A DNA stretch of 45,175 nucleotides, from NCBI GenBank assembly GCA_021841585.1, contig JAKBUS010000015.1:1-45175 (forward strand). Reading direction: 5' to 3'. How positions within the stretch are numbered: the stretch's first letter is position 1; every line of letters begins with the position of its first letter. This stretch comes from Pseudomonadota bacterium. GTDB lineage: Bacteria; Pseudomonadota; Gammaproteobacteria; Acidiferrobacterales; Acidiferrobacteraceae. A program made the translations under genes and the position numbers. The notes below the pieces were generated by a model, which was not told the DNA's origin, made no database searches, and saw nothing but the letters and a program-made list of their open reading frames with translations. Below are positions 41,218-45,175 of the stretch, piece after piece.

Positions 41218-41320
41218 TTGGCGGTTCGCCGCCGTCACCGTTTCGTCATGCATCCTCCGTAGTATCGCGCCACGCGGCCCCCGATGGACCGCGCCATCCC
41301 CCAAAGGAGATTTCCAACCC

Positions 41321-41773
41321 ATGAAATACCTGAAGAAGGTCATGGCCGTGTGCGCCGTGGCCGCGGTTCTTGCGCCCACTGCGGTCCTGGCAGAGACCCG
41401 CATCCAGTCCGACATTGCCTATCGCCGCGAACTCATGGTGGCGATGGACTGGAATCTCGTGCGTATCGCGCAGACGCTCCGCCATCAGCGTCCTTACGAT
41501 CCGAGCCGCATCGCCGGAGAGGGTCAAGCGCTGGCGGCCCTCGCCCGCCTGCCGTGGGTGGCGTTTGTGCCAGGGTCCGATCGTGGGGCCACCAAGGCAT
41601 CGGTGCGTATCTGGCAGCAGCCGCGCGCCTTTGCGGCGGCGGTCAGCCATTTCGAGGCGCTTACGCGCACGCTCGCGCAGGCCGCCGCCCATGCCCCGCT
41701 TGCGGCATCCGCGCGCCCGCTCGAACGCGTGGCCGACGCCTGCCGCTCCTGCCATCACCGCTTCATGCGCTAG
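41321..41773 (+). CDS. Cytochrome c' (class II c-type cytochrome)
   Basis: Periplasmic heme protein of 150 residues with a Sec signal peptide (KYLKKVMAVCAVAAVLAPTA, cleavage after ALA). The mature part follows the cytochrome c' pattern: IAYRRELMVAMDWNLVRIAQ, ALAALARLPWVAFVPGSDRG and IWQQPRAFAAAVSHFEALT. Covalent heme binding is at the C-terminal CRSCHH. The family binds NO and is linked to nitrosative-stress protection; a role here is inferred. AAAGGAGA precedes ATG 41321. It converges on a b-type cytochrome with only 13 bases between stops, and the two may work together. Confidence 0.9.
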   Translation: MKYLKKVMAVCAVAAVLAPTAVLAETRIQSDIAYRRELMVAMDWNLVRIAQTLRHQRPYDPSRIAGEGQALAALARLPWVAFVPGSDRGATKASVRIWQQPRAFAAAVSHFEALTRTLAQAAAHAPLAASARPLERVADACRSCHHRFMR

Positions 41774-41786
41774 GCGGTCCGCCCAG

Positions 41787-42482
41787 TCATATTTGGAGAA
41801 TGAGCCAGGTCCCGAGGCCCGATAGCGCTAGCGCGAGCACGCTCACCCACGGGCGCGCGAAGGCGTGATTCGGGACCGGGCTCGCCATGGGCCTTGCCGC
41901 GCGCCCGGTGATCATGGGGCGTACGAGATCGTGGCCCGCTACCACGCGATGCAGGATTACCGCGCTTACGTGCGTCACGATGAGGGTTAGCAGGACATCG
42001 AAATTCCACTTGTGGATGGTCGTAAGCAGGTCGCCCATATGGCCCCCGACCAGTGGGTTCAAGGGGCCGGCGGTCAAGACGTCGTCGGTCGCAAAAAGCC
42101 CGGTTCCGACCTGAACCATCAATGACACCAGAAAGGCGATGACGGCCCATCCGCCCAACGGATTATGCCCGTGAATGTCGGGTGCCCCCCGGCGCCACGA
42201 TTTGATGTATTCCCAGGTGCCGCGCGGCGAGCGCAGAAAATGCGCAAAGCGCGCGGTATGGCTTCCGACAAAGCCCCATGACAGGCGAAACAGGATCAAC
42301 GTGAGGACCGCGTAGCCACCCCACATGTGGTAGCGCATCAAGCCATGCCCTAGGTGGGCCGAGGCCCACTCCCAAGCTACAAGGGCCGCCAGTGTCCAAT
42401 GAAATGCACGCGTCGGAACATCCCAGATCCGCGGGCGCTCGCCGCTTTGCGCGCCTCGGTTGCCCGGTGTCTTGCCATTCAT
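41787..42482 (-). CDS. Cytochrome b561-family diheme membrane protein
   Basis: A 231-residue protein with four main membrane helices, related to the b561/hydrogenase b-type cytochromes. His candidates for heme binding are in VPTRAFHWTLAALVAWEW, LMRYHMWGGYAVL, TTIHKWNFDVLLTLIVTHVS and VILHRVVAGHDLV. Such proteins often pass electrons from quinol to small periplasmic cytochromes and are frequently neighbours of cytochrome c' genes. Here the pair is convergent rather than an operon. A GAGG ribosome-binding site precedes ATG 42482. Confidence 0.85.
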   Translation of the reverse strand: MNGKTPGNRGAQSGERPRIWDVPTRAFHWTLAALVAWEWASAHLGHGLMRYHMWGGYAVLTLILFRLSWGFVGSHTARFAHFLRSPRGTWEYIKSWRRGAPDIHGHNPLGGWAVIAFLVSLMVQVGTGLFATDDVLTAGPLNPLVGGHMGDLLTTIHKWNFDVLLTLIVTHVSAVILHRVVAGHDLVRPMITGRAARPMASPVPNHAFARPWVSVLALALSGLGTWLILQI

Positions 42483-42631: not shown

Positions 42632-42649
42632 CTGTCAAAAAACTGTCAT
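42632..42649 (+). promoter_or_regulatory. Pho box upstream of the TonB-dependent receptor
   Basis: CTGTCAA (42632-42638), AAAA, CTGTCAT (42643-42649) reproduces the PhoB-binding consensus of two seven-base direct repeats separated by four A/T bases. A third related half, TTGTCAC at 42665-42671, lies exactly 22 bases (two 11-base turns) further on. It is about 90 bases upstream of the receptor ATG and on its coding strand. No clear -10 hexamer was seen, as is common when PhoB replaces the -35. Confidence 0.8.
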
Positions 42650-42739
42650 CGAAAAAGGCCGTGGTTGTCACAGCCCTACGGCAGAGTACGCCGCAGAAAG
42701 TTCCCAACATGAACAAAATCAGTGGAGGAATGTCGCATC

Positions 42740-45124
42740 ATGCCGTCGCTTAATCGCCCGTTACCGGCCAGTCCGGGTCGACTGTCGGTGTTAAGTTCGC
42801 TTGTGTTGTGCGCGCTCGCCGCCACTCCGGCCGGCGCCGCCGCTCATGATACATCGTCTGTAAACGTCGGGACCGTGAACGCGCAAAGCCGCAAGAAAGC
42901 CGAGGCGCTCTTGAAGGCCACCAGCACCAAGCTCACCAAGCGCAAGATCCTGAAGTCGACACAGACCGAGCGCTTCATAGGACGTCGTCAGATCGCCGCC
43001 AATGGACCCGTGGCGGGCTCCGCGCAGGCCCTGGCCATGGCCCCAGGGGTGGCGGTGCGTGGGTATGGCGGTATCAGCGGATCGGCGCGCTACGAGATCG
43101 CGCTGCGTGGGGTCAAGGTCGGTTGGTCGAGCGTGAACGGCGATGTCGAGCGCAATGGCATCACCGTGCTGTTTGACGGGGTGCCGATGAACAATCTCAT
43201 CTCCCATAACGGCGGGTGGGATTCGAATGAAATCCCGATCATGCAGCTCATCTCCGGCGTCAATGTCATCTATGGGCCGGGTAATCCCGCGAGCCGCTGG
43301 TATGACAGCGTCGGCGGCACCATCAACTTTGTCCCCGTTCAGCCCACGAAGCAGGCGGGGGGCAGTCTGGGGTTGACGTACGGCAGCAATCAGACCGAGG
43401 GCGCGGACCTTATCGCCAACACCGGCACGCACGATAACTGGTCGACGGTGGTGGCCGCGGGCTTCGTGCGGGACAACACCTTCCGTACCGGTTCCTTCTC
43501 GGCACCTAGCCGTTCGTCGGCGTTGTTTGCCAAGACCGTGAAGACCTTTAGTGACGGGTCGTTTAGCGTCGGCGGCTATGAAGACGACAATACCGAGTTT
43601 CGGCCGAATTTCATTCCCGTCTCGCCCATAACCGCCGGGCCGGGCGGCAGCGCCATTACCGTGGATGGCACGCCCAACACGCCGCTCTATAGCCAGTCGA
43701 CCACCGGGTATTACTCATCGTTGCCCGAGTCGGTGTGGTTTAAGCAGATCGTGGTGCGCGATCGCATGCTGTATTCGCAGATCAAGCTTGGTCTCGCACC
43801 CAATCTGTCGGTGCACGACCTCGTGTGGTATCGCCATGGACACAGGGTCCACTGGCGCGTAGACAATTACAATTACAACGGCGCGCCGCCCGGCACCGTG
43901 AATTCCGAGTACTACAACCCGCGCTCCGATACTTATGGGAATCGTCTGGTATTCGACCTGACTCTGCCCATGAACCGCGTGAAGTTCGGGGGGTCGTGGA
44001 TCAATCAGACGTATTCGACACCCTATACGGGCTATAACGAGACCTACGGAACGAGCCCGGCGAATCCGGTCCAGTACAATAACGACACGCTCGACAATAC
44101 CTATTTGACGGGCTTTGTGCAGGACGCGATCACGCCGATCAAGGCCTTGACGATCACCCCGGCGGTCGCTGGCGTCGATTTCCAGACGCAGTTCTTCAAC
44201 AACGGCGCAAGTTATACGCCGCCTGGGGCCGCCAACCAGACGATTGCGCCGAGCGATAGCAAGGTCTTTACGCGCATGGAACCGTCGCTGGGCGCGCGCT
44301 ACATGATCGCTCCGCATTGGTCGGTGTACGGCAATGCCGCCGAAACCTACCAGAACCCCGGCGACAATGCCTTCGGCGCCTATAGCGGCAGCAACGTCAT
44401 CGATCTGGCGACGCTAAAGCCCGTCAAGAGTGTCGACTACGAGCTGGGGACGCGGCTTTTGATCCGGCGCTCGGGCCTGTTGCGTCATTTCGTGATGAAT
44501 GCGGATGTCTATCGCGACACGTTGAGCAACGAAACCCTGACCACCTATATATCGACGGGTGGCGGTTTCGCGACTACCCAGTTCGCCTCGGCAAGCGCCA
44601 CCTATCAGGGCTTGAACGTAAGCGCGCAGGACAGCCCGACGTGGCATTGGCATGTCTTCGGGACCGCCTCGTTCACGCACGCGCATTTCGACTCCTACGT
44701 GCCAGGTGGCAGCACGACGAACTACGCGGGTTATCCGATCTCCTATAGCCCCAACGTCACGGCATCCTTGGGTCTCAATTACCGCGTGGCCTTTGGTCGC
44801 TATCTAGTGTCGCCCGGCGTGTCCGATCAATACACGGGCACGCAGTACATGTTCAGCAACCTGGTCAATGCACCGACCAACAATGTGCAGATGGCGTCTT
44901 ACAACATCGTCAATACACAGGTGGCCATCAAGGCCGGGACCGGTATGGCCGGCCTGTCCGCGGTGACCGTGACGGTGGGCGTGACCAATCTCTTCAATAA
45001 GCACTACGACCCTATCCAGTACATCACGAGCGGCGGCTATTTTGGTGGCAACAGCGCCGGGGCCGTGCTCGCCGATCCGGGGGCACCGCGGCAATACTTC
45101 ATCAATCTGAACGCGCGCTTCTGA
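42740..45124 (+). CDS. TonB-dependent outer-membrane receptor
   Basis: Ligand-gated outer-membrane barrel of 794 residues. A signal peptide (LSSLVLCALAATPAGAAAH) is followed by a possible TonB box around SVNVGTVNAQ. The plug domain contains RYEIALRGVKVGWSSVNGDV, ITVLFDGVPMNNLI, GVNVIYGPGNPASRWYDSVG and GTINFVPVQPT. The rest is Tyr/Asn-rich beta-strand sequence, ending VGVTNLFNKHYDP and the C-terminal Phe of NLNARF. ATG 42740 is chosen with GGAGG at 42724-42728; GTG 42722 is in frame. The ligand is unknown. The upstream Pho box suggests phosphate-starvation control rather than Fur control. Confidence 0.9.
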   Translation: MPSLNRPLPASPGRLSVLSSLVLCALAATPAGAAAHDTSSVNVGTVNAQSRKKAEALLKATSTKLTKRKILKSTQTERFIGRRQIAANGPVAGSAQALAMAPGVAVRGYGGISGSARYEIALRGVKVGWSSVNGDVERNGITVLFDGVPMNNLISHNGGWDSNEIPIMQLISGVNVIYGPGNPASRWYDSVGGTINFVPVQPTKQAGGSLGLTYGSNQTEGADLIANTGTHDNWSTVVAAGFVRDNTFRTGSFSAPSRSSALFAKTVKTFSDGSFSVGGYEDDNTEFRPNFIPVSPITAGPGGSAITVDGTPNTPLYSQSTTGYYSSLPESVWFKQIVVRDRMLYSQIKLGLAPNLSVHDLVWYRHGHRVHWRVDNYNYNGAPPGTVNSEYYNPRSDTYGNRLVFDLTLPMNRVKFGGSWINQTYSTPYTGYNETYGTSPANPVQYNNDTLDNTYLTGFVQDAITPIKALTITPAVAGVDFQTQFFNNGASYTPPGAANQTIAPSDSKVFTRMEPSLGARYMIAPHWSVYGNAAETYQNPGDNAFGAYSGSNVIDLATLKPVKSVDYELGTRLLIRRSGLLRHFVMNADVYRDTLSNETLTTYISTGGGFATTQFASASATYQGLNVSAQDSPTWHWHVFGTASFTHAHFDSYVPGGSTTNYAGYPISYSPNVTASLGLNYRVAFGRYLVSPGVSDQYTGTQYMFSNLVNAPTNNVQMASYNIVNTQVAIKAGTGMAGLSAVTVTVGVTNLFNKHYDPIQYITSGGYFGGNSAGAVLADPGAPRQYFINLNARF

Positions 45125-45147: not shown

Positions 45148-45175
45148 AAGGCCTCAAGGGTGGTCCTTGGGCCTT
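45148..45175 (+). terminator. Terminator hairpin after the receptor gene (cut by window end)
   Basis: AAGGCC (45148-45153) and AAGG (45156-45159) pair with CCTT (45165-45168) and GGCCTT (45170-45175), with a small internal bulge. It lies 23 bases after the stop. Any T run would be outside the window. Confidence 0.6.

Follow-up and report, generated by a model that had tools for sequence, protein, structure and literature searches.

The gene for a TonB-dependent outer-membrane receptor at the end of a 45-kb contig of an acid-mine Acidiferrobacteraceae bacterium (contig C14, the whole of which was analyzed and is called the window here) is, judging from sequence comparison, very likely controlled by PhoB. 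We consider it probable, at roughly 80%, that PhoB activates this receptor together with its energizing motor and that the two import a phosphorus-bearing ligand. The genome of origin comprises 2.57 Mb in 124 contigs and is 99.67% complete. An earlier note on this DNA had proposed PhoB control from a near-consensus Pho box and a third, in-phase half-site at position 42665. Both are present, and the proposal is now strongly supported because the array is conserved in orthologues, is recognized by a matrix trained only on pstS promoters, shares its layout with an exbB-exbD-tonB operon, and is missing from negative controls. The receptor and its promoter consist of the following elements.

42632–42649, forward strand: distal Pho box with half-sites CTGTCAA-AAAA-CTGTCAT at an 11-base period (42632–42638 and 42643–42649), from the sequence, the genome count, and the matrix.
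42665–42671, forward strand: third, promoter-proximal PhoB half-site TTGTCAC, 22 bases past the second half-site and 33 past the first.
42682–42687, forward strand: probable −10 element CAGAGT, 10 bases past the proximal half-site, assigned by eye and of putative function.
42724–42729, forward strand: ribosome-binding site GGAGGA, kept in close orthologues.
42740–45124, forward strand: TonB-dependent receptor of 794 amino acids with plug (PF07715) and barrel (PF00593), from domain search, structural model, and fold comparison.

The three half-sites lie at offsets 0/11/33. As at Pho-regulon promoters, 7-base direct repeats resembling CTGTCAT recur at 11-base spacing, and the repeat stands about 10 bases before the −10 element (placed by eye), where a −35 element would be expected. 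This 10-base distance between half-site and −10-like hexamer is the same at the receptor, pstS, and OprD-type porin promoters (all hexamers assigned by eye). The perfect pair CTGTCA-N5-CTGTCA occurs once in the 2.57-Mb genome, at the receptor promoter. With up to two mismatches allowed, the genome holds 85 such sites versus 55 for the reversed pattern, and TGTCAY-N5-TGTCAY with at most one mismatch gives 18 versus 5. We built a half-site matrix from pstS promoters alone, using the 17 family genomes in which pstS was matched over its full length and excluding the G007 pstS fragment and five order-level genomes; the 11-base-spaced pair was present in 17/17 of these promoters at nearly the same place. 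Scored with this matrix on both strands, the window gave a top value of 17.8 at the receptor site and one other pair of at least 12.5 (13.3, preceding a cytochrome c' gene). The genome encodes PhoB itself (TIGR02154, 341.5 bits against a cut-off of 296.2), and its own pstS gene has a Pho box, one of four sites that match CTGTCA-N5-CTGTCA with one mismatch. The two perfect TGTCAY pairs of the genome lie at pstS and at C100:46835, upstream of exbB-exbD-tonB. As a negative control, the receptors on contig C104 of the same genome have no Pho box, the best pair in that stretch scoring 12.0.

Of the 18 family genomes searched, 14 contain a receptor orthologue; no close one was found in G003, G011, G012, or G017. 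Three promoters were left unscored (G005, where the contig ends within the leader; G006, a partial gene; and G008, where the gene runs over three frames), and L109 was added from the named collection, giving 12 promoters. The 0/11/33 layout, which we defined from the window promoter alone, was present in all 12 scorable orthologues, and 0/1000 dinucleotide shuffles reached the score in each case. Seven arrays are strong (the window, G004, G013, L109, G009, G010, and G001) and five are weak. The two-site test was passed against all 400 dinucleotide shuffles by 6/11 orthologues including the window, and shuffle fractions for the remaining five were 0.0025–0.04. Among background frames, 3/202 non-receptor frames reached 14.2, the lowest orthologue score (exbB of L100, a pstS, and a glycosyltransferase), as did 7/17 receptor frames from the same 18 sources, which include loci picked for holding Pho genes. 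Paralogues of the receptor within the family beat all 400 shuffles in 5/9 cases in the pair test, and those of the order-level genus g7 in 0/5. The unscored G008 orthologue (L053, G008:C2:994136-996515), whose coding sequence is broken into three frames, may represent a decaying gene or an assembly error.

The same promoter layout recurs at the genes for the motor, which lie elsewhere in the genome.

L198:4835-6722 (G000:C100): exbB-exbD-tonB operon (PF01618, PF02472, PF03544), unlinked to the receptor, from domain matches and the array.

ExbB, ExbD, and TonB, on which a TonB-dependent receptor relies, are thus encoded in the receptor's own genome, and the C100:46835 pair upstream of them extends into a 0/11/33 array like that of the receptor. 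We found this array in 18/18 orthologous exbB promoters, 38–44 bases before the start, with 0/500 shuffles reaching the score in each; the 18 loci come from 17 of the 18 family genomes searched, with none in G017, and the single half-sites at L216 and L217 are poor. The exbB paralogues recovered by the same search carry the array in 0/7 cases (shuffle fractions 0.11–0.75) and therefore form a clean negative control. The receptor and the motor appear to belong to a single uptake system under Pho control, and we infer from the common layout that the window receptor pairs with this operon.

On this basis we propose the following mechanism. Upon phosphate starvation, phosphorylated PhoB would bind the 0/11/33 array and activate the receptor promoter, the last half-site, 10 bases before the −10 hexamer, replacing the −35 element. 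PhoB would also switch on the exbB-exbD-tonB operon through the same layout, so that receptor and motor would be made together, and the motor probably serves related Pho-controlled receptors too. The receptor would then draw into the periplasm a phosphorus-bearing ligand too large for porins, such as an organophosphate or a metal-phosphate chelate, from which periplasmic phosphatases would free phosphate for the Pst transporter. PhoB binding, induction, the substrate, and the phosphate-release step are what we infer from these sequences. Receptors of this kind are generally taken to be iron importers. Because a conserved phosphate-starvation switch stands on the receptor and the same switch stands on motor genes that could power it, the receptor probably scavenges phosphorus, and a phosphorus substrate is likely.

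Several observations weigh against this proposal. The G002 array is degenerate yet in register, those of G007, G014, G015, and G016 are partial, and the automatic match in G016 falls at a different distance from the start. Of the 22 named rows besides the two orthologues, 2 beat all 400 shuffles, and scores directly upstream are low in L140 (2.1; a partial relative at 63%) and in two Acidithiobacillus sister copies, L120 (5.4) and L132 (7.1). At L120 a pair scoring 18.9 lies about 600 bases upstream, ahead of a small frame, and the L132 receptor sits behind exbB and exbD in its cluster. In the window's own genome, no phosphate genes adjoin the receptor, and a phosphoesterase domain was matched only once, on a different contig where the nearby receptors lack Pho boxes. 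The motor does not belong to the window receptor alone, since it persists with its array in G003, G011, and G012, in which the search turned up no close receptor orthologue. Finally, the fold of the receptor cannot separate substrates: a Foldseek search with its AlphaFold model (pLDDT 80.8) returned resemblances to PqqU, Fiu, FecA, and FhuA at about 15% identity. These matches reflect the general TonB-receptor fold, and we dropped a substrate guess from structure.

The receptor frame runs from the ATG at 42740 to the TGA at 45122–45124, and both plug (PF07715, E 3.2e-8) and β-barrel (PF00593, E 7.2e-29) are matched. Near the N-terminus, where a TonB box would be expected, residues 41–46 read VNVGTV, with G44 and V46 invariant among 27 sequences. 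A search of solved structures by sequence gave no match at E 0.001 or better.

The neighbors of related receptors bear on the substrate. Three Acidithiobacillus receptors (52–55%) form a group with the window clade that leaves out all other rows (support 96/95, midpoint root). One of the two A. ferrianus sister copies has a box scoring 21.8; behind it come a β-propeller protein that contains the phosphoesterase domain PF04185, TonB, and cytochrome b561. The second copy belongs to a cluster that also encodes a phosphate:H+ symporter-like protein (TIGR00887, 305.6 bits, below the cut-off of 610.3), a PhoB-like winged-helix protein (PF00486) along with another just under the cut-off, proteins clustering with ExbB and ExbD, a further receptor, a protein bearing a phosphoesterase domain, and TonB-like and b561 proteins. 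The paralogous receptor of L100 adjoins a phosphoesterase/phospholipase-C-like protein, and paralogues elsewhere neighbor TonB and a 2-aminoethylphosphonate-type ABC transporter (L107 tested, below the NCBIfam cut-off). The suggestion in the earlier note that the receptor takes up a phosphorus compound or a metal-phosphate chelate is thus supported, though not proved, by the genomic context of relatives.

In genomes of the Acidiferrobacter family and of Acidithiobacillus, PhoB-like winged-helix proteins are encoded next to receptors of paralogous or sister type (L099:8945-9724, L100:7379-8209, L101:6833-7615, L121:4104-5003, and L132:3125-3985). PF00486 was tested in L099 and L132, in neither of which Pfam detected a receiver domain; the other three were assigned by BLAST clustering. 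These five receptor-adjoining genes raise the alternative that such a protein, or another regulator of the OmpR/PhoB type, binds the sites. We regard this as quite improbable: the matrix derives from promoters of pstS, which is the classical target of PhoB, the genome encodes a true PhoB, no winged-helix regulator lies near the window gene, and L099 has the regulator yet no pair of at least 10 at its receptor.

On its upstream side, the receptor is flanked by two cytochrome genes.

41787–42482, reverse strand: cytochrome b561 (PF01292), divergent from the receptor, from a domain match.
41321–41773, forward strand: cytochrome c' (PF01322), from a domain match.
41232–41249, forward strand: weaker Pho-like pair CCGTCAC-CGTT-TCGTCAT, 10 bases before TAGTAT and upstream of cytochrome c', score 13.3.

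Cytochrome b561 adjoins the receptor clade in 10/12 flanked loci, divergently in 8 and downstream in the same direction in 2. Duplicate loci (L093–L097 versus L110–L112, L114, and L115) were taken once, and L119, L122, and L140, which are cut contigs or partial genes with no b561 in the available flanks, were excluded. Among 39 other receptor loci, some of them duplicates, we found one marginal match at an edge (L191, E 4.9e-5) and otherwise none. The link to b561 and cytochrome c' fits a reductive step on an iron-phosphate ligand. In such a version of the proposal, an Fe(III)-phosphate or Fe(III)-organophosphate chelate would be imported and b561, with cytochrome c', would reduce the iron and free phosphate for Pst; phosphorus would be the nutrient gained and iron only the handle. 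We consider this version less likely than not. The two gene arrangements speak for it, as do the presence of b561 among the same-strand genes clustered with each A. ferrianus sister copy and the Pho-like pairs of the adjoining cytochrome c' gene in several relatives (L092, L093, L095, L096, and L097; scores from highest to lowest 16.8, 16.0, 14.9, 12.2, and 11.6, without shuffles; L113, where the gene starts at the contig end, was left out). Acid mine water is also rich in iron, and iron binds phosphate. Against it, b561 and cytochrome c' are an ordinary respiratory pair and may be unrelated neighbors; b561 was not found in the available flanks of the G007 and G015 orthologues or of sister copies L120 and L121; and the divergent b561 has no Pho box on its own strand at the loci examined. 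We dropped the idea that a Pho box controls the divergent b561, the best reverse-strand pairs scoring 6.7–9.4 at five loci; a value of 18.3 at the L097 b561 is the receptor's own box, because that locus has the opposite orientation. The fullest form, a dedicated PhoB-controlled TonB system in which the receptor, its own ExbB-ExbD-TonB, b561, and cytochrome c' extract phosphorus from ferric-phosphate or ferric-organophosphate chelates by import and reduction, seems to us rather doubtful. In the window, the pair and TAGTAT ahead of cytochrome c' together span 41232–41265.

The roles of iron and phosphate could also be reversed. Osorio et al. (2008) proposed for Acidithiobacilli and Leptospirilla that phosphate chelates iron and that a ferric receptor is therefore tied to phosphate by way of PhoB-like regulators and Fur. 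They describe TonB-receptor clusters with phosphatases, ExbBD-TonB, and PhoB-like regulators (PMC2631029), and the siderophore-receptor model TIGR01783 does match the window receptor, at 94 bits, but this is under its cut-off of 223.5. Fur control was considered and dropped: the best Fur-like site at the window receptor matches 12/19 positions of the consensus, with a shuffle fraction of 0.08, and 10/11 leaders have no such 19-mer above 12/19 (G015 reaches 14/19). Since the array is moreover common to pstS-type sites and the motor operon, we judge iron acquisition unlikely for this receptor and favor phosphorus uptake under PhoB.

Two remaining features concern the ends of the gene.

42709–42753, forward strand: 14-codon frame overlapping the receptor start, probably there by chance, not conserved.
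45153–45175, forward strand: probable terminator hairpin, cut by the contig end, with a whole counterpart at L092:10246-10264.

The earlier note had read the short frame as a possible translational control. The frame is indeed present and runs across the ribosome-binding site and start; it is found in 1/11 orthologous leaders, that is, in none of the 10 others, and the closest relative retains its ATG and not its stop, leaving translational control very improbable. Whether the receptor stands alone could not be decided from the window, since only 51 bases of contig remain past the receptor stop. It does so downstream in L092, L093, and L097, since the neighbors there are unidentified frames followed by translation and RNA-metabolism genes (read by eye). 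On the upstream side, the divergent b561 adjoins. As part of our best explanation, we take the gene to encode a monocistronic TonB-dependent outer-membrane receptor. The earlier interpretation as a whole is partly supported. The motor operon elsewhere in the genome that shares the promoter layout, the b561 linkage, and the weaker Pho-like box at cytochrome c' go beyond what was read from the window.

Other Pho-type sites occur in the same genome. The remaining three one-mismatch sites lie before an OprD-type porin, before a family-4 glycosyltransferase, and inside a frame reading as aroE, the last taken as chance. The porin site (G000:C57:92483-92499, L004) stands 10 bases ahead of TATGAT, about 5 kb from phoB. 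The glycosyltransferase (box at L194:5075-5092, G000:C110) is divergent from an MFS transporter and could possibly serve phospholipid replacement. A weaker site (L098:6020, G000:C10; 13.4) lies upstream of a frame reading by eye as exopolyphosphatase (Ppx/GppA).

TonB receptors of iron-oxidizing acidophiles have been catalogued as ferri-siderophore receptors in passages of two studies (PMC2631029, PMC2621215), a label that is puzzling in water full of soluble iron. The Pho array on this receptor clade and on the motor operon suggests that part of the acidophile TonB repertoire serves phosphorus, and the genes and promoters listed here can be tested directly. Should the association with b561 prove functional, it would indicate how phosphate bound to iron can be used; were chelate import and reduction true, iron would be the handle and phosphorus the prize for bacteria in iron-saturated acid water.

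PhoB-controlled TonB receptors are already known as a kind, as precedents in Caulobacter, acidophiles, and Pseudomonas establish, and phosphate-linked receptor clusters of acidophiles have been known since 2008. In the parts of the Caulobacter crescentus report consulted, PhoB controls various TonB receptors, placed in its regulon by transcriptome and assumed to import phosphate-containing compounds as alternative phosphate donors (PMC11208175). The window receptor resembles these by its predicted regulation, and unlike in that report the array is here traced through orthologues and is common with an unlinked exbB-exbD-tonB operon. In Pseudomonas aeruginosa, passages on VreA/PUMA3 describe PhoB control of a TonB-receptor-like protein through a pho box (PMC4971064); VreA lacks a barrel and signals with a sigma factor, whereas the window protein has a plug and a full barrel. 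The Acidithiobacillus and Leptospirillum clusters, as described in the passages cited above (PMC2631029), contain receptors whose neighbors include phosphatases, a surface-layer protein, ExbBD-TonB, and PhoB-like regulators; they are read as phosphate-chelation-mediated iron uptake under Fur and PhoB, and those passages map no Pho boxes. The Acidithiobacillus relatives of the window receptor lie in clusters of this type. The combination of phosphatase, ExbBD-TonB, and PhoB-like genes in one cluster is partly present around the A. ferrianus sister copies and was not found at the window, L092, L093, L094, or L097. Unlike the clusters in those passages, the window gene stands apart from phosphate genes, with a Pho array and without a Fur box. 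A search of the open-access literature, largely by title and abstract, found no Pho-controlled exbB-exbD-tonB operon with this layout and no b561 link. What is new here is an exbB-exbD-tonB operon that carries the same Pho layout as the receptor.

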